A stretch of DNA of 64,000 nt from Actinobacteria bacterium IMCC25003 (GTDB lineage Bacteria > Actinomycetota > Actinomycetes > Nanopelagicales > Nanopelagicaceae), in NCBI GenBank assembly GCA_002284855.1, contig CP015603.1, forward strand, positions 124,001 to 188,000, written 5' to 3'. Position numbers and translations under genes: made by a program. Each line of letters starts with the position of its first letter. Within the stretch, counting starts at the first letter, position 1. Under the pieces are notes generated by a model. The model saw only the letters and a program-made list of their open reading frames with translations, ran no database searches and was not told the DNA's origin. Shown here in pieces: positions 21,769-57,744 of the stretch.

Positions 21769-23124
21769 TTACTCTGAGTGGAAGGCAAAAGCCTCATCAT
21801 GGAAGCGGTTCTTAGGCACTCCGAGGTCCTCAGCAGCCTGTTTCACGGTCTCAACAAGCGGCCCTGGGCCACAGATGTAGATATCTGAGTCAGAGATACG
21901 GGGGACCAATACCTTCAACGCCTTCGCATCCATTGGATGTTCCTTGCGTGATCCCACCAAGTAGTGAACTCGAATCGTGCCTCCCGAATTAGCCTCGAGG
22001 TAGTCGAGTTCTTCTTTGAGCACTAAATCCTCTTTGCGCGATACGCGGAAAATAACATCCATCTGCACGCCATTCTTAAACTCATCCATCAGCGCACGAA
22101 TCGGTGTAATACCCACACCGCCACCAACCATCACCACATGCGGTCTCGTTGCACGCCCTGCAGTAAATGCTCCATAAGGACCCTCAACAAATACTCGCGT
22201 TCCACGCTTTAAGAATGCAAGTGACCGAGAGTGATCACCTAGATCCTTCACAGTCACACGTAAGAAATTCTCAGTCGGCGCAGCCGATAGAGAATACGGA
22301 TGTGACATCAAGAAGTGACCGCGAGTTAAGAAGCGCCACCCAAAGAACTGTCCACCTTCAGCTGCCAGCTTATGTAAGTTGCGCCCTTTCATAATCACCG
22401 AGATAACTCCAGGTCCTTCAACCACTACTTTGTCCACAACCAAGTTAAGTTGCAGCGAGCGCCACAAAGGAATGCCAAATCGATAGTAAACAACACAGAC
22501 CACCATCAATACATAGAGAGATGTCCAGTACAAACGATTAAGTGGATGTCCCACAAACATCTGACCGTTAAGCACCTGATGCATAAATGAAACTGCGATA
22601 GCGATGTAGGTATAGATATGGATAATCCACCATGTCTCATAACTCATCTTTGCTCGCGCCTTCTTATATGAAGTCACTCCCGCCATTACCATCAATACAA
22701 ATCCCGCCAGCGCCGGCCACATCCACGCCATCGAATTAACCATTCGCCACATCTCGACAACTAACATCACGCCATCTTGGCCCGCAGATGACAAGACAAT
22801 AAAGAGCACATGTGCCCCAATGAGATACAAGCTCCATGGCCCCAGCTTTCGATGCCAGGTCACCAATCGATCGTGCCCCACCCCGCGTTCAACCCACGGA
22901 ATACGCGCAATCAGAAAGATGCCCACCACCGCAAAGAAAGTCCCTGTAAGGGCTGCCAAGCGCGATACAGATGCCACCACCGCATAGACCGATGAGATAT
23001 CGCTCTTACGCATCGTCGTCACCTGCAGAGCCAACGTCAGCCCCAAGCCAATCCCTAAGAACCACGAAGCCCAATCAACCCCAGCTGATGAGTACTTCCT
23101 AAATGTGGCCCCGGTGCTTTTCAT
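21769..23124 (-). CDS. Membrane flavocytochrome oxidoreductase (ferric reductase-like TM domain plus FAD/NAD(P) module)
   Basis: A 451-residue protein. About six membrane helices (residues 15-220) carry heme-ligand-type histidines (WHRKLGPWSLYLIGAHVL and HIYTYIAIAVSFMHQVL). The cytoplasmic part is a ferredoxin-reductase module: FAD site HPYSLSAAP, NAD(P) site GGGVGITPIRALM, and ICGPGPLV. It would pass electrons from NAD(P)H through FAD and heme across the membrane, probably to the FMN-binding protein encoded next. It is the first gene of the three-gene operon and divergent from the glycan island. Confidence 0.9.
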   Translation of the reverse strand: MKSTGATFRKYSSAGVDWASWFLGIGLGLTLALQVTTMRKSDISSVYAVVASVSRLAALTGTFFAVVGIFLIARIPWVERGVGHDRLVTWHRKLGPWSLYLIGAHVLFIVLSSAGQDGVMLVVEMWRMVNSMAWMWPALAGFVLMVMAGVTSYKKARAKMSYETWWIIHIYTYIAIAVSFMHQVLNGQMFVGHPLNRLYWTSLYVLMVVCVVYYRFGIPLWRSLQLNLVVDKVVVEGPGVISVIMKGRNLHKLAAEGGQFFGWRFLTRGHFLMSHPYSLSAAPTENFLRVTVKDLGDHSRSLAFLKRGTRVFVEGPYGAFTAGRATRPHVVMVGGGVGITPIRALMDEFKNGVQMDVIFRVSRKEDLVLKEELDYLEANSGGTIRVHYLVGSRKEHPMDAKALKVLVPRISDSDIYICGPGPLVETVKQAAEDLGVPKNRFHDEAFAFHSE

Positions 23125-46002: not shown

Positions 46003-46822
46003 TTTGAACCCCCAAAGCTCTGAACCAGGATGTTACCCCTTCAATTGAATCTCGAAAGTCTATCCCGTCCAATTCTTCGGTCTTTCTAAATACGTAATTT
46101 CGGTTATCGTTTATGTCCGCACTTTGTGCAGCAATATGTAGAAGCTCTGTGGAGTTGAATTCTTTGAAAATTGCTATTGCCAGGTCTACAAGTCTCACTG
46201 GGTTTCCTTGGCTAATGTGATGGGTTGCGGTTTTCCCTCTGTCAATCAAATGACCAATGGCCTGTACGACGTCATGTACATGGTGCTACTCACGAATTTG
46301 ATCTCCTCCACTCATATTAAAAGATTTCTGTGAATTAATTGCTTCAAATATCTGACCTAAGAACATTTCTGGCTTCACGTGACTCCCCCCGTAAAGCGTA
46401 TGCATTTGAAAGTGAATATTCTGCCTCATCCAGTCTTCGCGAGATGTGTATTCCTCAAAATATGCAAGCTTTGAATTTAAATATCGATTACCTTTTGAAT
46501 ATTTGGGGAAATGCTCCATGACGGTGCCAAAAGTTGCTAGTTTAAAACCTATTTCGACACTCTTCTCTGCTAGAAAAATTGGGATACTTGAGTTTACGAA
46601 CTTCATCTCTTCCAAATCAGCACCAGTGTCTGTGATTCCTGCGCAGTTGAAAATGATGCAGTTTCTTGGTTGTATTGCTAATTTCGAAAGGAAATCTTCT
46701 AACTGATTCGGATTCTTAGGCCACTGAATGAACTCACTTCGTGTGACTTTTATTGAGTTTGGGTAATAATTATTTAAGGTTGTCGCAAGATTTCCCTTGA
46801 CCCCTAAAATTATTTTATCCAT
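45986..46822 (-). pseudogene. NAD-dependent nucleotide-sugar SDR interrupted by one in-frame TAG
   Basis: One continuous frame of 278 codons, broken only by TAG at 46288-46286 (codon 179). Upstream half: N-terminal Rossmann LGVKGNLATTL, NCAGITDTG and a reduced SDR core. Downstream half: HHVHDVVQAIGHLIDRGKT, the region that follows the stop and continues the family pattern (R-E-Y-H-H-V-x-D). The TAG stands where relatives have Tyr (TAT or TAC), a single-base change. No other lesion is seen, so this is a young pseudogene, a sequencing error, or a readthrough case. RmlD/epimerase-like, exact reaction unknown. Confidence 0.8.
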
Positions 46823-46860: not shown

Positions 46861-47931
46861 TTACTCTTCGACTTGCAGGACACTCGCTATGTCAGCCTTG
46901 CACGCCATCAAAGGGTCAGTCTGCTCGGTTAACACCTTTAGCCACCATTCAATCGATGAGGTAACTGCTGCTTCTTGACTCCAATTCGCATGCCAATTTA
47001 ATTCTTTATTCGCCAAACTCGGATCAAGTCCTAAAGTCTTTGCCTCTAGAGAGTCATTTTTTTCGAAATACTCCACTTTTGGATTGTGTGGCCAAGTATT
47101 TTTAGCTATCTCTGTAACTGTCCTCACACTCAAACTTGGAGTTGAGGGTCCAAAATTGAAACTGCTGATATCAGAGCCAAGAAGCGCATTTTCTAGCGCA
47201 AGGAGATAACCTACTAAAGGGTCTAATACATGTTGCCATGGCCTAGTACTGCCCGGGGAACGGATCTCGACCGTTGCAGATTTGGAAAATCCCCGCACTA
47301 AATCAGGAATCAAGCGATTCTCGGACCAATCACCGCCGCCGATAACATTTCCTGCTCTCACAGAAAGTATACGAGGCCCTCCCATCTGAGAGACAATCTT
47401 TCGCCACGCATCCACCGCTGATTCTGCCGCTACTTTACTCGCGCTATATGGATCATGACCTTGGAGTGGATCTGACTCTTTGAAATCTTTTCCGTCATTT
47501 GAATTTCGATAAACCTTGTCTGTCGTTACAGCTAGTACTGCTTTTACATCTGGAGCGTGGCAAGCAGCATTCAATATATTTGCCGTTCCGAGTGCATTTA
47601 CTGCAAAGGTTTCGAGTGGTTCTTGGTATGAAGTAAGCACAAGCGGCTGAGCTGCCATGTGGATGATGGCTTTCACATTATGCTGAGAAATAAATTCCTT
47701 CAGTATCTCTAGGTCCAGAATATTTGCAAAAACTTCCGAAGCACTTGGTTCACTTCCAAGTCTTTCATAAAGTGATCCCGGTTCGGGTTTCAGTGAATAA
47801 CCAACGTATGGGATACTTAGCGAATCAAGCAGAAGACCTAACCAAGCTCCCTTAAAGCCAGTGTGTCCAGTCACCAAAATTGGTCCCTCTAATGACCTAA
47901 TTTGCGTCAACGGGGAGGCAGCAAGTCTCAT
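46861..47931 (-). CDS. rfbG: CDP-glucose 4,6-dehydratase
   Basis: A 356-residue extended SDR. VTGHTGFKGAWLGLLL (20-35) is the diagnostic NAD site of RfbG, with HMAAQPLV, TTDKVY, YSASK (YxxxK) and STRPWQHVLDPLVGYLLAL. It converts CDP-glucose to CDP-4-keto-6-deoxyglucose, following RfbF and preceding RfbH, both encoded divergently 150 bases away. Confidence 0.94.
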   Translation of the reverse strand: MRLAASPLTQIRSLEGPILVTGHTGFKGAWLGLLLDSLSIPYVGYSLKPEPGSLYERLGSEPSASEVFANILDLEILKEFISQHNVKAIIHMAAQPLVLTSYQEPLETFAVNALGTANILNAACHAPDVKAVLAVTTDKVYRNSNDGKDFKESDPLQGHDPYSASKVAAESAVDAWRKIVSQMGGPRILSVRAGNVIGGGDWSENRLIPDLVRGFSKSATVEIRSPGSTRPWQHVLDPLVGYLLALENALLGSDISSFNFGPSTPSLSVRTVTEIAKNTWPHNPKVEYFEKNDSLEAKTLGLDPSLANKELNWHANWSQEAAVTSSIEWWLKVLTEQTDPLMACKADIASVLQVEE

Positions 47932-48024
47932 AGCTCAATATTACGCAATTCCGAGCGTTTTGTTGATCTTTTCATGTATTCTCACATCTTGTTCTAGTGA
48001 AATCTAAGGATACGTTTTCGGAGT

Positions 48025-48053
48025 CTTTGATTCCCTAGATGGAGACATCAAAG
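48025..48053. promoter_or_regulatory. Dyad in the rfbG / rfbH divergent gap
   Basis: CTTTGAT (48025-48031) and ATCAAAG (48047-48053) are perfect 7-base complements around 15 bases. The dyad is near the middle of the 186-base gap between the rfbG start and the preferred rfbH ATG, so it could be an operator acting on both. Nothing else recognisable is seen in 47932-48117. Confidence 0.3.
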
Positions 48054-48117
48054 TAAGCTCGCGCACAGAAGCAATTAATCAGAATTGGTAGTGATAAATC
48101 AGAGGGGGTCTGTCTTG

Positions 48118-49428
48118 ATGGAGGAATCCCTTAAAGAAATGGCTGAGCTCCTATCACGAGAAGCCGTAGATAAATTGCATGCCCCAGTTAACTTCATTCC
48201 CGGTGTATCAAATGTCCCAGTTACGGGGAAGGTGTTTGGAAGTGAAGAAATTTCAGCTGCAGTTCAAGCTAGTGCGGAATTTTGGCTAACTTCAGGCACT
48301 CATTCAGAGACTTTTGAAAGTAGATTTGCCAAGATTGTTGGGATGCGTCACGCATTCATGGTCAATTCGGGATCATCAGCAAATTTGTTAGCGCTTAGCG
48401 CACTCACAAGTCCCAAGTTAGGGGATCGCGCACTACGTCCGGGCGATGAAGTGATTACTGTCGCTGCGGGTTTCCCAACGACCGTTACTCCAATACTTCA
48501 AAATGGGCTCATCCCAGTGTACGTTGATATCGATCTTGTCACTTATGTAGCAAATGAATCTGCGCTGGAAGCCGCCGTCTCCCCAAAAACTCGAGCAATC
48601 ATGATGGCTCATACCCTTGGTAACCCGTTTAATTTAGATTTAGTTGCGAGGCTTGCTGAAAAACACAACCTTTGGATAATTGAAGATAGTTGCGACGGCT
48701 TGGGTGGCACTTACAAAGGTAAAACACTCGGATCCTTCGGGGATCTCTCCACTTTCAGTTTCTACCCTGCACACCACATTACTACTGGTGAAGGTGGTGC
48801 GGTGCTTGTGAAGAAGGCTGCACACAAAACAATCGTTGAATCATTCCGAGATTGGGGTCGTGATTGTTGGTGCCCTTCAGGTTGCGATAACACCTGTCTT
48901 AAGCGTTACGAATGGACTTTGGGTGAATTACCTGAAGGGTATGACCACAAGTACACATACTCTCATCTAGGTTACAACTTGAAATCGGGTGATATCCAAG
49001 CCGCTATTGGTCTTGCGCAACTTGATCGCTTGGACTCCTTCATCGAACTTCGCCGACGAAACTGGGCACACCTAAAGGCTGGGCTAAAAGGACTCGAAGG
49101 GTTTTTTATACTTCCAGAACCATCCCCAGATAGTGAACCGTCGTGGTTTGGCTTTGCGCTAACCGTGAAACCTGGTGGACCAAAGACGCGTAATCAAATT
49201 GTGCAAGAGCTTAATGAATCTAAGATTGCTACTCGGTTGCTTTTTGGTGGAAATTTACTTCGCCAACCTGCATTCAAAGGAACTCCAAGGCGCATAATTG
49301 GAGAGCTCACAAACACAGATATTGTCATGAACGACACTTTCTGGATTGGGGTTTGGCCGGGTTTGACTCTCCCAATGTTAGATTATGTAATTCACCAGCT
49401 TCACAGGATTCTTGGGGTTACAAAGTGA
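48118..49428 (+). CDS. rfbH: CDP-6-deoxy-4-keto-glucose-3-dehydratase (E1)
   Basis: About 436 residues from the ATG at 48118, preceded by AGGGGGT; an upstream TTG frame reaches 48085. The enzyme is a B6-dependent [2Fe-2S] dehydratase removing the C3 hydroxyl. Diagnostic features are His in place of the PLP lysine ([13 protein letters not shown]) and a Cys-rich cluster-binding segment ([16 protein letters not shown]). The partner reductase E3 (ascD/ddhD type) is not in the window. It overlaps rfbF in a GTGA junction. Confidence 0.95.
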
Positions 49429-50144
49429 AGGTGATTATTTTAGCGGGCGGACTTGGAACTCGAATTTCCGAGGAAACATCAAATAAGCCAAAGCCGATGG
49501 TTCTGCTAGATGATAAACCAATAATCTGGCACCTAATGAACATTTACGCTCGGCAAGGGTTTACAGATTTCGTTGTTGCTGCTGGATATAAAGCCGAGGT
49601 GATTCGAGACTGGGTCGACAATTTAAATACAAGTTGGAATATTCAAGTTGTAGACACGGGCCAAGAGACGCAAACTGGTGGCCGGATTTCTCGATGTATG
49701 AAGGAATTTCCAAATCAGCGAGTCATGGCTACTTATGGCGATGGTTTAGGGAATATAGATTTGCAAGGACTCTTAGATTTTCACGTACACCATGGAAAGA
49801 TGGCCACGGTAACAGCAGTTCGTCCGCCTGCGCGCTTTGGGGTTTTAGAGAGTGAAAATGGCTTGGTAAAGCACTTCGGGGAAAAGAATCAAGCTGATGC
49901 AGGGTGGATTAATGGCGGTTTTTTTGTGCTGGATCCCCAAGTTTCTGGATTGATTTCTTCTGATTCTGAGCCCTTTGAGACTGGTGCATTGCCAAAGCTC
50001 GTTGCCAGTAGAGAACTTATGTCCTTCCACCATAAGGGGTTTTGGCAGCCAATGGATACGTTGAGAGAGAAGGAAGAACTTATGAAACTTGCAAGTTTTC
50101 CTCAACCCCCTTGGCTTAATTTCGAATCTAAAGTTGATGCGTAG
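49425..50144 (+). CDS. rfbF: Glucose-1-phosphate cytidylyltransferase
   Basis: 239 residues from the GTG at 49425, which overlaps the TGA of rfbH (GTGA). [21 protein letters not shown] is the nucleotidyltransferase loop; [15 protein letters not shown] and [11 protein letters not shown] are RfbF features. It makes CDP-glucose, the entry to the 3,6-dideoxyhexose and branched deoxysugar routes. The longer frame from 49353 is not supported. Confidence 0.95.
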
Positions 50145-50180
50145 CTCAAAGACTTCGGTGATTACAGTTATAATTCAGAA

Positions 50181-51941
50181 ATGCCTGATAATCAAGTCTA
50201 TGAAAACTTCCAAAATTGGACATTTTTCTTACAAGAAGTTTCTTCGTTGCAAGATTTGGTTGCAAAGAGCTATCCTTTTGAATTAAACGAGCAGAACTTC
50301 TCACTGATTCCTTTTACAAAATTTGACTTGAGTTCAGAAAATTCTCTCCAGCTACTGGGGAACTGGAGAAAAGATAATGAATTCGCTTATCCGACTAGAT
50401 CTCTGATCACAACTGATGGGACATCAAAGTGGCTCGAAAATGCAGTCTTAAATAATGAAAATAGACTGCTTTTTTGGATAGTGGATTCTTCCCTCTCAAG
50501 ACTGGGGCATATTGGAGTTGTTTCCTACCCGATGGAAAATAGATTTGAAATTGACAACGTGTTGCGGGGAATTCCAAGTGAAAATCCAGGATTAATGGCG
50601 GCTGCTCTTTCAAAACTTGAAGCCATCATGGAGGAAGAATTCTCTATTGAAGAGATTTTCCTCCGAGTTCTTGAAAGTAATGTGCATGCAGTAGATTTTT
50701 ATTTGGCGCACGGATATTCAGAGTGTGCTCGCGAGGAGCTCTCATGGGAGTACACAGCAACGGGCTCTCGGCTCGTTCCAGGCAATACTAAAGATGATTC
50801 TTTTATCACCATGAAAAAGAATTTTTTGGAGTCTATCGCTTACATTCCCGGTCCTATACTTACGGCCGGTCCCTCAATTTCCGCGCTCGAGAATGCATAC
50901 GTGGCGGACGCCGTGCGCAATGGGTGGAACGCGCATCACTCCGACTATCTGCTTCGTTTTGAAAAAGAGTTCGCAGAATATGTAGGGGCTAGGTACGCAA
51001 TGGCTACCTCGAGTTGTACTGGGGCCCTACATTTGTCACTACTGGCTCTGGGTATCGGGCCAGGCGATGAAGTTATAGTCCCTGACATCACATGGGTTGC
51101 CACGGCGAGTGCCGTTAGGTACGTGGGAGCTAAGCCAGTTTTTGTTGATGTTTTGCCAGATTCATGGACTTTAGATCCTCAAGAATTGAAAGCATCGATT
51201 ACGCAGAATACAAAGGCGATCATTCCGGTTCATCTTTATGGATATGGGGCAAGAATGCCTGAAATTATGGCGATAGCTCATGAATTTAATTTGAAAGTTG
51301 TTGAAGACGCGGCACCGGCTATTGGTACACAGATTCACAAGAAATTTGCCGGGACATTTGGAGATTTTGGTTGTTTTAGTTTTCAGGGTGCAAAGCTTCT
51401 CGTTACGGGCGAGGGGGGTATGGTTGTAACGGATGACCCCATCCTGTATGCAAAAATCAAGAAAATTCAGGACCATGGTCGAAAACCAGGAACATTTTGG
51501 ATAGAAGAACTAGGTTTCAAATACAAGATGAACAACCTGACAGCCGCCTTGGGATTAGCTCAAATTCAGAGAGCCCAAAACCAAATTGACAGAAAAAGAC
51601 GAATAAATTCTTGGTATCAAGAAGGATTGAGAGACATCCCGGGTGTAAGTTTTCAGGTAGAAGACCGTGACACAAAGTCCATCTGCTGGATGAGCAGCTT
51701 CACGCTCGGGCAAGAATGCAAAGTAGATCGCGACGGTCTGATTGCGGCATTAAAACTTAATGGGATTGATTCTCGCCCAGTTTTCCCTTCAATTTCTCAG
51801 TACAAAATTTGGGGATATGCTCCTCAAGTCCCTCACAACTCCAAGTTAATTGGGGACTCTGGCATTAATCTTCCAAGTGGAGTTCTACTAAATTTCCGGA
51901 CCGTTGAGAAAGTAATTGAAACGATACGTAAAACTCTTTAA
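50181..51941 (+). CDS. Fusion of GNAT acetyltransferase and DegT/DnrJ sugar aminotransferase
   Basis: A 586-residue two-domain protein. Residues about 35-215 resemble a RimJ-type GNAT (NWRKDNEFAYPTRSL, GHIGVVSYP, LESNVHAVDFYLAHGYSECAREELSW). Residues 222-586 are a DegT/DnrJ/EryC1 aminotransferase (GPSISALENAYVADAV, SSCTGALHLSLLALGIGPGDEVIVP, VEDAAPAIG, SFQGAKLLVTGEGG with PLP lysine Lys405). The two activities are commonly encoded as separate genes; together they would make an N-acetylated amino sugar from a keto sugar. Its TAA shares TTAA with the convergent transketolase half. Confidence 0.88.
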   Translation: MPDNQVYENFQNWTFFLQEVSSLQDLVAKSYPFELNEQNFSLIPFTKFDLSSENSLQLLGNWRKDNEFAYPTRSLITTDGTSKWLENAVLNNENRLLFWIVDSSLSRLGHIGVVSYPMENRFEIDNVLRGIPSENPGLMAAALSKLEAIMEEEFSIEEIFLRVLESNVHAVDFYLAHGYSECAREELSWEYTATGSRLVPGNTKDDSFITMKKNFLESIAYIPGPILTAGPSISALENAYVADAVRNGWNAHHSDYLLRFEKEFAEYVGARYAMATSSCTGALHLSLLALGIGPGDEVIVPDITWVATASAVRYVGAKPVFVDVLPDSWTLDPQELKASITQNTKAIIPVHLYGYGARMPEIMAIAHEFNLKVVEDAAPAIGTQIHKKFAGTFGDFGCFSFQGAKLLVTGEGGMVVTDDPILYAKIKKIQDHGRKPGTFWIEELGFKYKMNNLTAALGLAQIQRAQNQIDRKRRINSWYQEGLRDIPGVSFQVEDRDTKSICWMSSFTLGQECKVDRDGLIAALKLNGIDSRPVFPSISQYKIWGYAPQVPHNSKLIGDSGINLPSGVLLNFRTVEKVIETIRKTL

Positions 51942-52846
51942 GCACTTAGCTCTTTGTTTATCTCTTGAATTGAATTCAGAATAGATTCAAATCCAATTTC
52001 ATAGTGGTTACGTAGATATTGTTGCGACCCACTAATTTGACTTGACAGAGAATGAATTCCCTTTCTATACACGACTGATTTTGACTGTGAAAGTAATTCA
52101 AGGATAATTGAGCCGAATCCCCCGCGGAGCAAGTGTTCTTCAACTGTAAGTATTCGCCGGTACCTAAGAGTTGGAATGTAATCAACTAACGCATCAAATT
52201 CGCTCACACTAATTATCGTGGGTCTTAATTCTGCCGCGAGGGCATCTACCGCCGTAACTACTTCAGAGAGCACATTTCCAGTACTTATCACTGCAATATC
52301 AGTTGATCCACTCATAATCGAAATTCCAGGCACAGCCTCTTGGAACTTCTCAGTGATTTGGCCCTCGCCACCCTTTCCTAGACGGATATATTTCGGACCT
52401 GCTTTGGCCAACATTCTGGGGAGTACATTTGTAACCTCAAGCGTATCGGCTGGAGAATACAAGGACATATTGGGTAGAACCGAAATAGCAGAAATGTCTT
52501 CAACTAAATGATGGGAGTAGCCCGCTGTTCCGTAACTAAACCCAGCCCCTAAAGCCACAATGGAAACATTTAGATTCATATGGCAGACATCATTTCTTAT
52601 CTGCTCAAGGCATCTAAATGTTGGAAAATTTCCGATGCTGTATACGAATGGCTTGAATCCTTTAGATGCCAGGCCAGCAGCTGCACCCATCATGGATTGC
52701 TCATTTATGCCAAAATTCAGGAATTGTTTTGGAAGTTCTTGTGCAAATCTATCAATCACGCCGTAGCCAAGATCTCCCGTAATCAAGAGAATAGATTCGT
52801 CCTTTTTCGCCTCTTCTAGTAATCCGTTAACAAAACTATTTCTCAT
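51938..52846 (-). CDS. Transketolase-like C-terminal subunit
   Basis: A 302-residue protein equal to the pyrimidine-binding and C-terminal domains of transketolase: FLNFGINEQSMMGAAAGLASKGFKPFVYSI with the catalytic Glu, IRNDVCHMNLNVSIVA, GTAGYSHHLVEDI and a C-terminal EEHLLRGGFGS. It overlaps the N-terminal subunit gene by 4 bases. Together they form one split ThDP enzyme, here linked to deoxysugar genes, not to the pentose phosphate pathway. Confidence 0.9.
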   Translation of the reverse strand: MRNSFVNGLLEEAKKDESILLITGDLGYGVIDRFAQELPKQFLNFGINEQSMMGAAAGLASKGFKPFVYSIGNFPTFRCLEQIRNDVCHMNLNVSIVALGAGFSYGTAGYSHHLVEDISAISVLPNMSLYSPADTLEVTNVLPRMLAKAGPKYIRLGKGGEGQITEKFQEAVPGISIMSGSTDIAVISTGNVLSEVVTAVDALAAELRPTIISVSEFDALVDYIPTLRYRRILTVEEHLLRGGFGSIILELLSQSKSVVYRKGIHSLSSQISGSQQYLRNHYEIGFESILNSIQEINKELSA

Positions 52847-53664
52847 TTTGAGGCCTCATCGATTTCAGCAAAAGCCAAATCAAGCTCTTCGAGTGTCGGA
52901 GATTTATAGTGCCACGCGATTGAATTCTCCATAAAGGAGACTCCTTTGCCTTTTACAGTTGTGGCGATAATGCAAAGAGGTTTGTCGGATTCTCTCGATA
53001 TTCCGTCCAAGATTTTTTCATGGTCGTGCCCATCTATTTCTAGTACATTCCAACCGAAGCTTTCCAACTTAGGCGCGATTGGATTTAATCTGAGTGTCTC
53101 TTCTGTAAAACCGAGAGATTGAATTCCGTTTCTATCGATAATCAATATCAGATTTGAAAGTTTGTTCTGAGGAGCCACTAAAGCTGATTCCCATGTGGTG
53201 CCTTCATTTAACTCGCCATCAGAAATTATGACTATTGTTTTCTGTTGGGATTTATGTTTCTTATTTGAAATTGCAAGTCCTATTGCAAATGGTAAACCGT
53301 GTCCAAGTGAACCTGTTGAGAGTGGGATCTGCGGGCTCGCATGATGATTCACATGCCCATAAAGCTGGGATCCGTCTTTGCAGTACGTATCCAAGGGTTG
53401 TAGAAGGAGATTTAAGGCATCTAATACTGCATAAAGTCCCGCTGCTGCATGCCCTTTTGAGAGAAGTACATCATTCCTGCTGGCAGAGGATACTAAGTTT
53501 TTCTGTGTAAAAACTACTGCAAGCAAATCAATTACGGATAAGCATGAACCAATATGAGAAGCTTTGCTTTGATTCGTCATTTCGAGCGCTGACTTTCGCG
53601 CCTTCGATGCGACCTGTAAAGATTTTGATAGTACCTTGCTAGCGCTATTTCCCGTCATTATCAA
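52843..53664 (-). CDS. Transketolase-like N-terminal subunit
   Basis: A 273-residue ThDP-binding subunit: SHIGSCLSVIDLLAV, LSKGHAAAGLYA, STGSLGHGLPFAIGLA, and the ThDP/metal motif IISDGELNEGTTWESAL...IIDRN, where Ser replaces the first Gly of GDG. Split transketolases in NDP-sugar clusters add two-carbon branches to keto-deoxysugars or make sugar precursors. The neighbours rfbFGH point to a CDP-linked branched sugar (inference). Confidence 0.9.
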   Translation of the reverse strand: MIMTGNSASKVLSKSLQVASKARKSALEMTNQSKASHIGSCLSVIDLLAVVFTQKNLVSSASRNDVLLSKGHAAAGLYAVLDALNLLLQPLDTYCKDGSQLYGHVNHHASPQIPLSTGSLGHGLPFAIGLAISNKKHKSQQKTIVIISDGELNEGTTWESALVAPQNKLSNLILIIDRNGIQSLGFTEETLRLNPIAPKLESFGWNVLEIDGHDHEKILDGISRESDKPLCIIATTVKGKGVSFMENSIAWHYKSPTLEELDLAFAEIDEASK

Positions 53665-53744: not shown

Positions 53745-54389
53745 TTAATCGAGGACTACGTCCCCACTTGGAGTTGAAAGGTGCACTGCAACAATTCCTG
53801 ATTGATCATCATTTTTTGACGGCTCTACCCACTCGATATTGACATCTCCAAGTGAAGCAAGGATCTCGTCCTTAAACCATGAACCTGCAAGCTGATCTTT
53901 ATCAGCAATAACAATCTTCTCGATCTCTGCAAGTGGTGTTCCATCTTGTGAAGGATGATCCGCAGAGAGCCATTGGATGAAGAATGGGAATTCTCTAGTG
54001 TCAGCAATCTCCTTGACACCGATTTGCTTCCACTTTAGGTCTGTTCCATTTGGGCGTGTTCGGTGTGCTTCAACTGCATCGCGACCAAACTTTGAAGCAA
54101 TTGGTGCAATATCTTTTGTGCTGAAAACCCATGTAAACCAACCGCCACCTTCGTTAGCTTTATTTGATACAGCCTTACCCCACGGTGTTTGTTCTGTTGC
54201 TGGGTGATCAAGTGGGCACACTACTTCGATGTACTGGCCGTTCTTCAGTGAAGCGGTGAAGTTGCGTGTTCCGAATCGTGGGTGGATACCACCGTCCACG
54301 AAGGTGCTGCCGAGGCGCGAGCCGAGGCGTTGTACTGTGTCAGCAAGTTGATCATGGGAAGTCACATAAGAAACATGGTCTAGACGCAT
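53745..54389 (-). CDS. VOC-superfamily (glyoxalase-like) protein
   Basis: A 214-residue protein: MRLDHVSYVTSHDQLADTV with a metal-type His, FGTRNFTASLKNGQYIEVVCPLDHP, GWFTWVFSTKDI, and a second half-domain ending STPSGDVVLD. It fits PF13468-like Glyoxalase_3 proteins. Substrate unknown. It follows holB in the minus-strand housekeeping block, outside the glycan island (62-base gap). Confidence 0.82.
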   Translation of the reverse strand: MRLDHVSYVTSHDQLADTVQRLGSRLGSTFVDGGIHPRFGTRNFTASLKNGQYIEVVCPLDHPATEQTPWGKAVSNKANEGGGWFTWVFSTKDIAPIASKFGRDAVEAHRTRPNGTDLKWKQIGVKEIADTREFPFFIQWLSADHPSQDGTPLAEIEKIVIADKDQLAGSWFKDEILASLGDVNIEWVEPSKNDDQSGIVAVHLSTPSGDVVLD

Positions 54390-55608: not shown

Positions 55609-57744
55609 TTACTTTTTCTTCTTTGTGGTCGCTGACTTACTTGCCTTGGCTGCACGTGTAACTGTTGTAGTGACTGCATGCGTAGCTGTGCGAATTGGCT
55701 TGAGGAATTTATTTTGCTGTGGTCCTTGTGCGTTGCGCTTGAGTGCGGGAAGTTCGGCAACGCGGGCGATGATTCGTGTGTGAATCTCTTCAACAGATTG
55801 CATACCATCGACAACGAAGTAGCGCTCGGGATCCATCATGGCGATTTGTAAAAACTCTTGGCGAACACGTTCGTGGAATTCGATTGGTTCTACTTCTAAG
55901 CGATCGCGTGATTGCAGGCGGCCAAGTCCGATTTCTGCAGGGACATCGATAAGAATTGTCAGAGTTGGATACAAACTCTCTGTCGCCCATCGAGAGATAC
56001 GTGCAACCTCTGATGGATTGAGAACGCGACCTGCGCCTTGGTAGGCAGCAGATGAATCGAAGTAACGGTCGGTGATGACAACATCTCCGCGATCAAGACC
56101 TGGGCGGATTACTGAGAAGACATGGTGCGCACGGTCAGCTGCGTAGAGAAGAGCTTCTGCGCGTGGGCTAATGATTCCAGTTTCATGACCGAGAAGAATT
56201 TTGCGTAAATCTTTTCCAAGATCAGTGCCGCCGGGTTCGCGCGAGAGAACTACGGTTTCACCCTCTTGTTCAAGCCACTTGGCAAGTAATTGTGATTGTG
56301 TTGATTTACCGGTGCCTTCGCCGCCTTCGAATGCGATGAAGATTCCCTTGGTGGGTGCGCCAGTGATTGCCCCGAGTTCGCCTTGAAGGGCGGCAAGGAT
56401 GTCTGACCACAAAGAAACCGTTGGTCGATCTTTCATCTGGTGATACGAGACAGAGCCAATGAGAACTGCGATAAGGCCTGCAATAAGTATGGTGATCTGT
56501 GCGCCGTTGTAGTTAAGGACGATTGTTTGGAATTCATAGCGGTGTACACCGATTGTGGCGGCGATGATGGGGGCGATTGCAAGAACGGCCACCAAAGTAA
56601 TACGTATCAGTGACTGTACGAAGGCGAAGGTGCGGCCGCGGATTTCATCGTGGACTTCCATGCCGAGCATGGTGAAGCCTGTTACCCAGGCGATGCCGCT
56701 GAAGGCTCCGAGGATTGCAACGATGAGAACCGAGAGAACTAGGTTTGAGATAAGCGCTAGTAGGACGAGGAATACACCTGAAGTTGTCAGCGATGCACCA
56801 AATAAACGGCGGCGGGAGAACTGTGCAAATACTTTAGGTCCAAATGCGATTCCGATGGCAAGGCCAGTAAATACAGAACCAAAGAGAACACCGTATGCCG
56901 CGTCTCCACCACCAAGATCTCCTACGAATGTGCGGGCAAGGCCGATAACAGCGCCGGCTGCTGAGAATGCGCCGACCATTCCGATAATGAGGCCGCGGAT
57001 GATTTTTGATTCCGAGACAGCTTTCCATCCTTGAATTAGTGACTGTCCGACGTTCTCATCTTTATTTGATTTAGATGCTGCACCCTTTGGAATCTCCTTG
57101 AGGCCGCGGATTGTCCATGCTGCGAATAGGAATGAGAGTGCGTTGATGTATAGGGCGATATCAACTGAGTTACTTGGCAAGAGCGGGCTGATTGCTGCGA
57201 TTACACCAGAGAGTAGTGTGAGGAGCGAGAAGAGAATTGCGGCAACGGGTGCGGTTCCATATGCAGCAAGCAGTGAGACTTGATTTGCGTTCTCAAGCTT
57301 GTCACGCGGAACAAGGTTGGGAACTGATGCCTCTTTGGCAGGTGACCAGAAGAGAGTCAGGCACTCAACGAGAATCATGGCGGTGTAGAGCCAGAAGTAT
57401 GTGTGAACGATTGGGATAGAGATGTAGAGAGCTGCGCGCATGATGTCGACTGCGACCATGAGGCGTCGGCGATCAAAGCGATCGGCGATTACTCCGGCGA
57501 TGGGGCCGAGAAATACTGCAGGAAGTAAGCGGGCAATAAAGACACCGGCGATTGCGAAGTTTGCTGTTGCGTATGAGCCGCCAGAGAGTTGTTGTGCGAG
57601 CGCCGTAGTTGCAAGAAGGCCGAGCCAATCACCAAGGGAAGAGAAGACCATCGAGTTCCAGAGCTTGCGAAAGGCTGGGATTGCTAGGACTCCGCGGGTT
57701 GCATCCTGCGCTGGGGCAGCGGGGGTTGGCAGGCTTGCAGGCAT
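55609..57744 (-). CDS. tmk: MFS transporter fused to thymidylate kinase
   Basis: A 711-residue fusion. Residues 20-435 form about 12 membrane helices of an MFS permease (ADRFDRRRLMV loop). Residues 467-675 are dTMP kinase: P-loop FEGGEGTGKST (472-482), SREPGGT, DRYFDSSAAYQGAGR. A Lys/Ala/Thr-rich tail ends in four Lys residues. The kinase makes dTDP; the permease substrate is unknown. This fusion is known in several actinobacterial groups. Confidence 0.94.
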   Translation of the reverse strand: MPASLPTPAAPAQDATRGVLAIPAFRKLWNSMVFSSLGDWLGLLATTALAQQLSGGSYATANFAIAGVFIARLLPAVFLGPIAGVIADRFDRRRLMVAVDIMRAALYISIPIVHTYFWLYTAMILVECLTLFWSPAKEASVPNLVPRDKLENANQVSLLAAYGTAPVAAILFSLLTLLSGVIAAISPLLPSNSVDIALYINALSFLFAAWTIRGLKEIPKGAASKSNKDENVGQSLIQGWKAVSESKIIRGLIIGMVGAFSAAGAVIGLARTFVGDLGGGDAAYGVLFGSVFTGLAIGIAFGPKVFAQFSRRRLFGASLTTSGVFLVLLALISNLVLSVLIVAILGAFSGIAWVTGFTMLGMEVHDEIRGRTFAFVQSLIRITLVAVLAIAPIIAATIGVHRYEFQTIVLNYNGAQITILIAGLIAVLIGSVSYHQMKDRPTVSLWSDILAALQGELGAITGAPTKGIFIAFEGGEGTGKSTQSQLLAKWLEQEGETVVLSREPGGTDLGKDLRKILLGHETGIISPRAEALLYAADRAHHVFSVIRPGLDRGDVVITDRYFDSSAAYQGAGRVLNPSEVARISRWATESLYPTLTILIDVPAEIGLGRLQSRDRLEVEPIEFHERVRQEFLQIAMMDPERYFVVDGMQSVEEIHTRIIARVAELPALKRNAQGPQQNKFLKPIRTATHAVTTTVTRAAKASKSATTKKKK

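Follow-up and report, generated by a model that had tools for sequence, protein, structure and literature searches.

The cluster at positions 46861-53664 of a 64,000-nucleotide stretch of the genome of Actinobacteria bacterium IMCC25003 (the window; C1:124001-188000 of a one-contig 1.35 Mb genome) encodes RfbF, RfbG and RfbH, the two halves of a split thiamine diphosphate (ThDP)-dependent transketolase and a fusion of a GNAT acyltransferase with a DegT-type aminotransferase. From gene content and sequence comparison, we suggest that the cluster probably makes a cytidine diphosphate (CDP)-activated, C-4-branched deoxyhexose, in which the transketolase would add a hydroxyacetyl group and the fusion would aminate and acylate the ketone of the branch. 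More tentatively, the product could be a CDP-linked 3,6-dideoxy-4-C-(1-acylamino-2-hydroxyethyl)hexose. A preliminary description of the window had named the three rfb genes and the split transketolase and proposed an unusual branched CDP-sugar. Family scores and Pfam domains confirm these genes at the positions given in Table 1, but the description left out the fusion, which probably provides the next step after carboligation. The two-carbon branching of a CDP-4-keto sugar is supported by genomic context and by an exchange of carboligases within the genus, but a 3-deoxy acceptor appears to be optional.

In the proposed route, RfbF and RfbG would make CDP-4-keto-6-deoxyglucose and RfbH would then take off the 3-hydroxyl, reactions of the kind known for these protein families. 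Next, the split transketolase would move a two-carbon ketol (hydroxyacetyl) unit from a ketose or hydroxypyruvate to the ketone at C-4, which would turn C-4 into a tertiary alcohol bearing a branch with a ketone of its own; this would be the counterpart of the YerE-type step, which uses pyruvate. The side-chain ketone may, less surely, be aminated and N-acylated by the fusion, which stands where other clusters have a short-chain dehydrogenase/reductase (SDR), and the finished sugar would enter a surface glycan built by the surrounding glycosyltransferase genes.

The strongest evidence for a branching role is the exchange of carboligases. Among 135 genomes of the genus, five have an RfbH above the curated cut-off and all five have a ThDP-dependent carboligase in a cluster: a split transketolase in two (the window genome and G061) and an acetolactate-synthase-like enzyme in three (G628, G645 and G669). 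In each of these three, an open reading frame (ORF) with all three ThDP domains of the acetolactate synthase family adjoins the rfb genes, and a further, better-scoring match of the same Pfam family is located elsewhere in the genome. We label these enzymes YerE-type by family and context, not by comparison with the YerE sequence, and take the decarboxylase family of YerE to be acetolactate-synthase-like. No carboligase of this fold is present in the window; the genome has three PF02776 genes, none of them there, of which two read as menD and iolD by context and the third, the best-scoring frame of 603 residues, is presumably ilvB. One and the same rfb set is thus accompanied, within the genus, by a split transketolase in some genomes and by an acetolactate-synthase-type ThDP enzyme in others.

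The wider distribution links the transketolase to CDP-sugar genes. A single-protein scan with the C-terminal half gave only one distant locus (L004), and whole-genome searches were therefore adopted. The transketolase clade is found in 12 of 296 genomes of the order (E<1e-100; next best 2e-62), all of one genus. RfbG (E<=1e-50) occurs in 22 of the 135 genus genomes, including all 12 that have the transketolase (hypergeometric probability 1.4e-11, relatedness ignored), and in 10 of these an RfbF or RfbG gene is a near neighbour on the contig, whereas in G638 and G642 the contig ends too soon to show one. In G061, rfbH-rfbF-tkN-tkC-SDR form one run with RfbG about 16 kb away, and its cluster and that of the window seem to occupy the same chromosomal place, since the same glyoxalase-like gene borders both. 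Outside the order, relatives scoring above 300 bits accompany RfbF and an RfbG-like gene (G490), RfbF, an RfbG-like gene and RfbH (G425), or RfbH (G152). Some of these assignments involve low scores: G127 has its RfbG in two fragments, neither of which reaches the cut-off, and for the RfbG-like genes of L104, L105 and L146 TIGR02622 is the best family but is matched below its cut-off. Ten genus genomes have RfbG without the transketolase clade. Seven of them were examined: three have the adjoining acetolactate-synthase-like enzyme; in G085, which has both RfbF and RfbG, a split transketolase belonging to another sub-clade lies about 9 kb off; and no ThDP gene could be seen in the stretches viewed of G623, G681 and G657, the last a contig of 4 kb. 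In another genus, RfbF and RfbG of G031 lie about 5 kb from such an other-sub-clade transketolase (L046). This comparison leaves aside four genomes with matches below the cut-off (G668, RfbH-like; G097, G109 and G578, RfbG).

The preliminary description had proposed looking for a separate full-length transketolase and placing the two halves in a phylogeny. The former is present at C1:946717 (430 bits to PF00456 in a whole-genome search), and the latter separates the window pair from it. In a tree of the joined halves (37 rows, group labels assigned from neighbouring genes), 25 sugar-cluster split transketolases, the window pair with them, make up one side of a branch with support 100/99, and 10 catabolic-labelled split enzymes and two housekeeping enzymes the other; trees of the single halves give the same partition (N half, 86; C half, 98). 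The tree leaves out L035 and L134 (partial), L040 (a near copy), L004, L147, and L048, L049, L114 and L115 (one half cut, missing or not called). Within the sugar side, the rows from CDP clusters are not a clade alone, and DegT, dpm and heptose-like rows are interspersed. Kinship with the alpha and beta subunits of pyruvate dehydrogenase (PDH) E1 was not found: PDH E1 alpha reaches only 31.8 bits for the N half, whose best NCBIfam family is the transketolase NF004559 (212 bits; cut-off 488). A dedicated sugar-cluster paralogue is the best explanation for the split transketolase.

The active site was compared with Escherichia coli TktA, whose residue roles (ThDP, Mg, donor, phosphate, acceptor) are as we take them to be, across the 25 sugar-clade, 10 catabolic and two housekeeping rows. 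The window pair keeps the ThDP/Mg and donor residues (H26, H66, H100, D155, N185, H261, E411 and H473, E. coli numbering) and also R358; S385, H461, D469 and R520, all present in the genome's own full-length transketolase, are replaced by G, G, A and K. Ser385 is kept in one of 25 sugar-clade rows, against 9/10 catabolic and 2/2 housekeeping, and Arg520 in two of 25, against 10/10 and 2/2. His461 is absent from all 10 catabolic rows and Asp469 from nine (three being gaps), so that only Ser385 and Arg520 separate the groups. Their loss in the sugar clade fits an acceptor other than an aldose phosphate. The SDGE motif of the N half, which had been taken as a form seen in sugar-cluster relatives, is indeed present in the window but was rejected as a marker: the genome's own housekeeping enzyme has SDGD, and the motif is mixed across the groups, with GDGE in the CDP-cluster rows L105 and L106 and SDGE in the catabolic rows L043, L044 and L047. 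The rows of L112 and L113 have SDAE.

These residues bear on an alternative that we regard as unlikely, in which the transketolase supplies, by ordinary sugar-phosphate chemistry, a precursor such as a pentose or heptose phosphate that goes into a different sugar of the glycan, the CDP sugar being left untouched. The retained donor-binding histidines would suit it, as would the seemingly heptose-like clusters in which the clade relatives L036 and L111 are found; however, the clade mostly does without the phosphate-site residues, its nearest relatives are consistently among CDP genes, where acetolactate-synthase-like enzymes take the same slot, and no heptose or pentose nucleotide family is the best match for the proteins of 46861-53664.

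The fusion sits between RfbF and the transketolase pair. Its DegT domain retains the lysine that binds pyridoxal phosphate (PLP) and thus reads as a real aminotransferase. It is rare, occurring in 2/296 genomes of the order and 3/396 sampled genomes of the phylum (the window in both), which makes four loci. All four have CDP-hexose genes and an adjoining ThDP enzyme (transketolase twice, YerE-type twice), and the full-length identities to the window fusion are 53% (G669), 49% (G490) and 46% (G168). The locus of G490 was already known before this neighbourhood was predicted; that of G168 was examined afterwards and has, in one run, genes for an RfbG-like protein, RfbH, a glycosyltransferase-like protein, the fusion, a ThDP enzyme and RfbF.

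A carboligated sugar has a side-chain ketone, for which reduction by an SDR, or amination and acylation by the fusion, are natural alternatives. In 17 loci tabulated by hand from gene maps, the gene adjoining the carboligase is an SDR in 13 and the fusion in four, and the two never both directly adjoin it. The table leaves out L035, L134 (contig ends in the C half) and L045_5 (a 262-residue fragment), counts L120 and L121 although their CDP genes are on other contigs, and counts L106 by RfbH only. In L104, GMD- and Fcl-like ORFs are also found on the opposite strand, at a distance of three and four genes from the fusion. Eight of the 13 SDR loci represent one close lineage, so the independent groups number about six against four (1/210); L146 was found via the fusion and L128 via RfbH and RfbG, which means that neither was sampled at random. 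The SDR class was family-tested for L030, L031, L105, L106, L126 and L127 (L030 and L127 barely over the Pfam cut-off), and the remaining seven were assigned by likeness to L031. We presume that the SDRs beside carboligases are side-chain ketone reductases. No intact side-chain ketoreductase is located beside the window carboligase, although the genome may encode one elsewhere; the one SDR of the cluster adjoins RfbG and has an in-frame stop. A frameshift in this gene was ruled out, as the translation shows one in-frame TAG and a frame unbroken to the domain end. The stop may represent recent decay or a strain variant, and it would be consistent with a switch of the cluster to amination. Compared with the SDRs beside other carboligases, the broken gene gives a best shuffle z of 4.0, at which homology is not clear, and 7.7 to an Fcl-like protein; no solved structure was matched at E 0.01. 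It is perhaps a vestigial reductase, linked to the pathway by position only.

A second alternative, which we consider slightly less likely still than phosphate-sugar supply, is that the cluster yields either a 3,6-dideoxyhexose with no branch or, through the fusion alone and perosamine-synthetase-like amination at C-4, a 4-acylamino-4,6-dideoxyhexose, the transketolase being a neighbour from a separate pathway or in decay. The nearest match of the DegT domain is perosamine synthetase, the GNAT domain shows a weak likeness to PseH, GMD- and Fcl-like genes are present elsewhere in the genome, one SDR of the cluster is already broken, and some genomes of the genus have RfbF and RfbG without a carboligase. 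Set against this, the rare fusion adjoins a ThDP enzyme in a CDP-hexose locus in four of four cases, and both transketolase halves are open with their catalytic residues kept. That the pair serves central metabolism, as membership of the transketolase superfamily might suggest, is highly improbable given the full-length transketolase with all phosphate-site residues and the trees that separate the two, and the idea that it is the sole transketolase of the genome is refuted.

Several observations weigh against the branched sugar that we favour. The transketolase pair is oriented opposite to the fusion in the window. The likeness to perosamine synthetase, together with the GMD- and Fcl-like genes, means that the fusion could aminate C-4 of another sugar, and the SDRs of L105 and L106 resemble dehydratases and epimerases as much as reductases. 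Of the 12 order genomes with the transketolase clade, several of them drafts, only two yielded an RfbH, so the C-4 ketone would be the constant feature and 3-deoxygenation optional. Genomes that have RfbG but no ThDP gene in view indicate that CDP-hexose genes need no carboligase; clusters L036 and L107-L113, on the same side of the tree, have no CDP genes that we could see. Loss of the phosphate-site residues makes a sugar-phosphate donor less likely. Finally, according to a 2025 review (PMC12247030), acceptance of a ketone by a transketolase has yet to be demonstrated in vitro, none of the enzymes proposed to do so having been assayed.

The genes of the cluster are listed in Table 1. In RfbH, a His replaces the PLP lysine and the cysteines follow the pattern C-X57-C-X-C-X7-C; we take both to be marks of an E1 iron-sulphur enzyme, and the protein reads as a dehydrase on these grounds. 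Its listed start is TTG, and the true start may be a few codons further downstream. The homologous stretch of RfbF begins at about 49425, and the protein is 65% identical to L030_7. The transketolase halves overlap by four bases. An E3 (RfbI) partner for RfbH was not found, in agreement with the preliminary description: the whole genome has a single PF00175 reductase match, inside ORF 21769-23124 of the window, which looks like a membrane protein of the ferric reductase type. With no E3 at this level, another reductant must serve RfbH if RfbH works; a different ferredoxin or flavodoxin system could fill this role. A PADLOC scan of the two transketolase halves and the fusion gave no hits.

Table 1. 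Features of the CDP-sugar cluster, in window coordinates
Feature	Position	Strand	Supporting matches
SDR-like gene, broken	46003-46822	-	single in-frame TAG near 46286; read-through 22.9 bits to PF01370 (cut-off 20.9)
RfbG, CDP-glucose 4,6-dehydratase	46861-47931	-	NCBIfam TIGR02622, 349 bits (cut-off 278)
RfbH (E1), CDP-4-keto-6-deoxyglucose 3-dehydrase	48085-49428	+	NF011936 RfbH equivalog, 676 bits (cut-off 423)
RfbF, glucose-1-phosphate cytidylyltransferase	49353-50144	+	TIGR02623, 271 bits, below cut-off 300 yet best family
GNAT acyltransferase + DegT/PLP aminotransferase fusion	50181-51941	+	PF13302 (25.2 bits; cut-off 25.4), PF01041
Transketolase C-terminal half (pyrimidine + C domains)	51938-52846	-	PF02779, PF02780; closest solved chain 6yaj
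Transketolase N-terminal half (ThDP/Mg domain)	52843-53664	-	PF00456; closest solved chain 6yak

Around the cluster, the glyoxalase-like gene (MRLDHVSYVTSHDQLADTV, window 53745-54389) is also found near differing sugar sets in L030, L034, L036, L126 and L132, as if it marked the edge of a variable surface-glycan island. Further along, a 711-residue frame at 55609-57744 (minus strand) reads as an MFS-type transporter joined to a thymidylate kinase, which, like the small genome, is suggestive of a freshwater actinobacterium of the Nanopelagicales. Within the genus, G628 has a second RfbH-RfbG pair (L125, 1151-3473) with no RfbF or ThDP enzyme adjoining, and L130, L132 and L133, which have RfbF and RfbG and no adjoining ThDP gene, have a nearby ORF that reads by eye as a sugar C-methyltransferase, perhaps giving a one-carbon branch instead of two.

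Related transketolases occur in other sugar contexts. L107, L108, L109, L110 and L116, whose enzymes fall on the same side of the tree as the window pair, have the split transketolase beside a DegT aminotransferase (the contig of L116 ends before one is visible). These loci also have a bacterial sugar transferase, an assignment backed by a family test in L107 alone, and large dehydratase-like genes are near in L107 and L110; they represent a second, non-CDP sugar context. In L038 (6891-11428) and L046 (7036-11560), the split transketolase is followed by a pair of SDRs and by a methyltransferase-like protein that begins LEEL..LW. A GDP-mannose-dehydratase-like gene comes next in L046, with RfbF and RfbG about 5 kb off, and the L038 genome has RfbG about 9 kb off; both are possible GDP-sugar branching clusters. 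L036, L039 and L111 appear by eye to be heptose-like clusters (HAD or kinase-like genes, with SIS-domain genes in L036 and L039), and L112, L113 and L115 combine the transketolase with a DPM-type glycosyltransferase (and an SDR in L112 and L113), with no CDP genes seen.

The chemistry that we propose varies the yersiniose type of branching: a transketolase would serve as the carboligase, and the branch would be capped by amination and acylation. In the yersiniose A pathway of Yersinia pseudotuberculosis, the ThDP enzyme YerE uses activated acetaldehyde to place a two-carbon unit on C-4 of CDP-4-keto-3,6-dideoxyglucose (PMC12247030, PMC4753412). The RfbF, RfbG and RfbH set for this acceptor is present in the window as in that pathway, with RfbF below its NCBIfam cut-off. 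YerE, however, is a single ThDP-dependent flavoprotein of the decarboxylase family using pyruvate, whereas the window has a split transketolase, from which a hydroxyacetyl branch is expected, and an aminotransferase-acyltransferase adjoining the carboligase. Miharamycin and amipurimycin are nucleoside antibiotics. Ketone-accepting transketolases have been proposed for both and for 13 Streptomyces sequences (PMC12247030); likened by description, these too are split genes in a keto-sugar cluster with a proposed hydroxyacetyl addition. The window differs in its surface-sugar-type locus, its small-genome actinobacterial host, its CDP sugars and the YerE-type counterpart in sister genomes. Branch ketones of this kind undergo reduction, methylation, oxidation or, in the case of kibdelomycin, transamination (PMC12247030). 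AviB1/B2 and the kibdelomycin enzyme KbDH (alpha-keto-acid dehydrogenase 2) are likewise two-subunit ThDP enzymes adding C2 branches, but they are PDH-E1-like with pyruvate as donor, and the window pair fits transketolase families much better. The nearest solved sequences belong to the Carboxydothermus split transketolase (6yaj/6yak), which also has separate N and C chains. The wps-2 exopolysaccharide cluster of Actinoplanes missouriensis has a split transketolase beside DegT aminotransferases; the passages concerned list its domains and leave the role of the transketolase unstated (PMC13390465).

The locus pairs a candidate ketone-accepting transketolase with a defined acceptor route, CDP-4-keto-deoxyglucose, and since a YerE-type enzyme occupies the same slot in sister genomes, branching by a transketolase becomes testable in vitro. 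We found no paper in the open-access literature that joins RfbG or RfbH with a transketolase and, from limited open-access searches, know of no report of such a class of surface sugar. Our analysis also suggests that sugars with a two-carbon branch, which may be reduced or aminated, occur in various free-living actinobacteria, where they would contribute to the variability of surface glycans.

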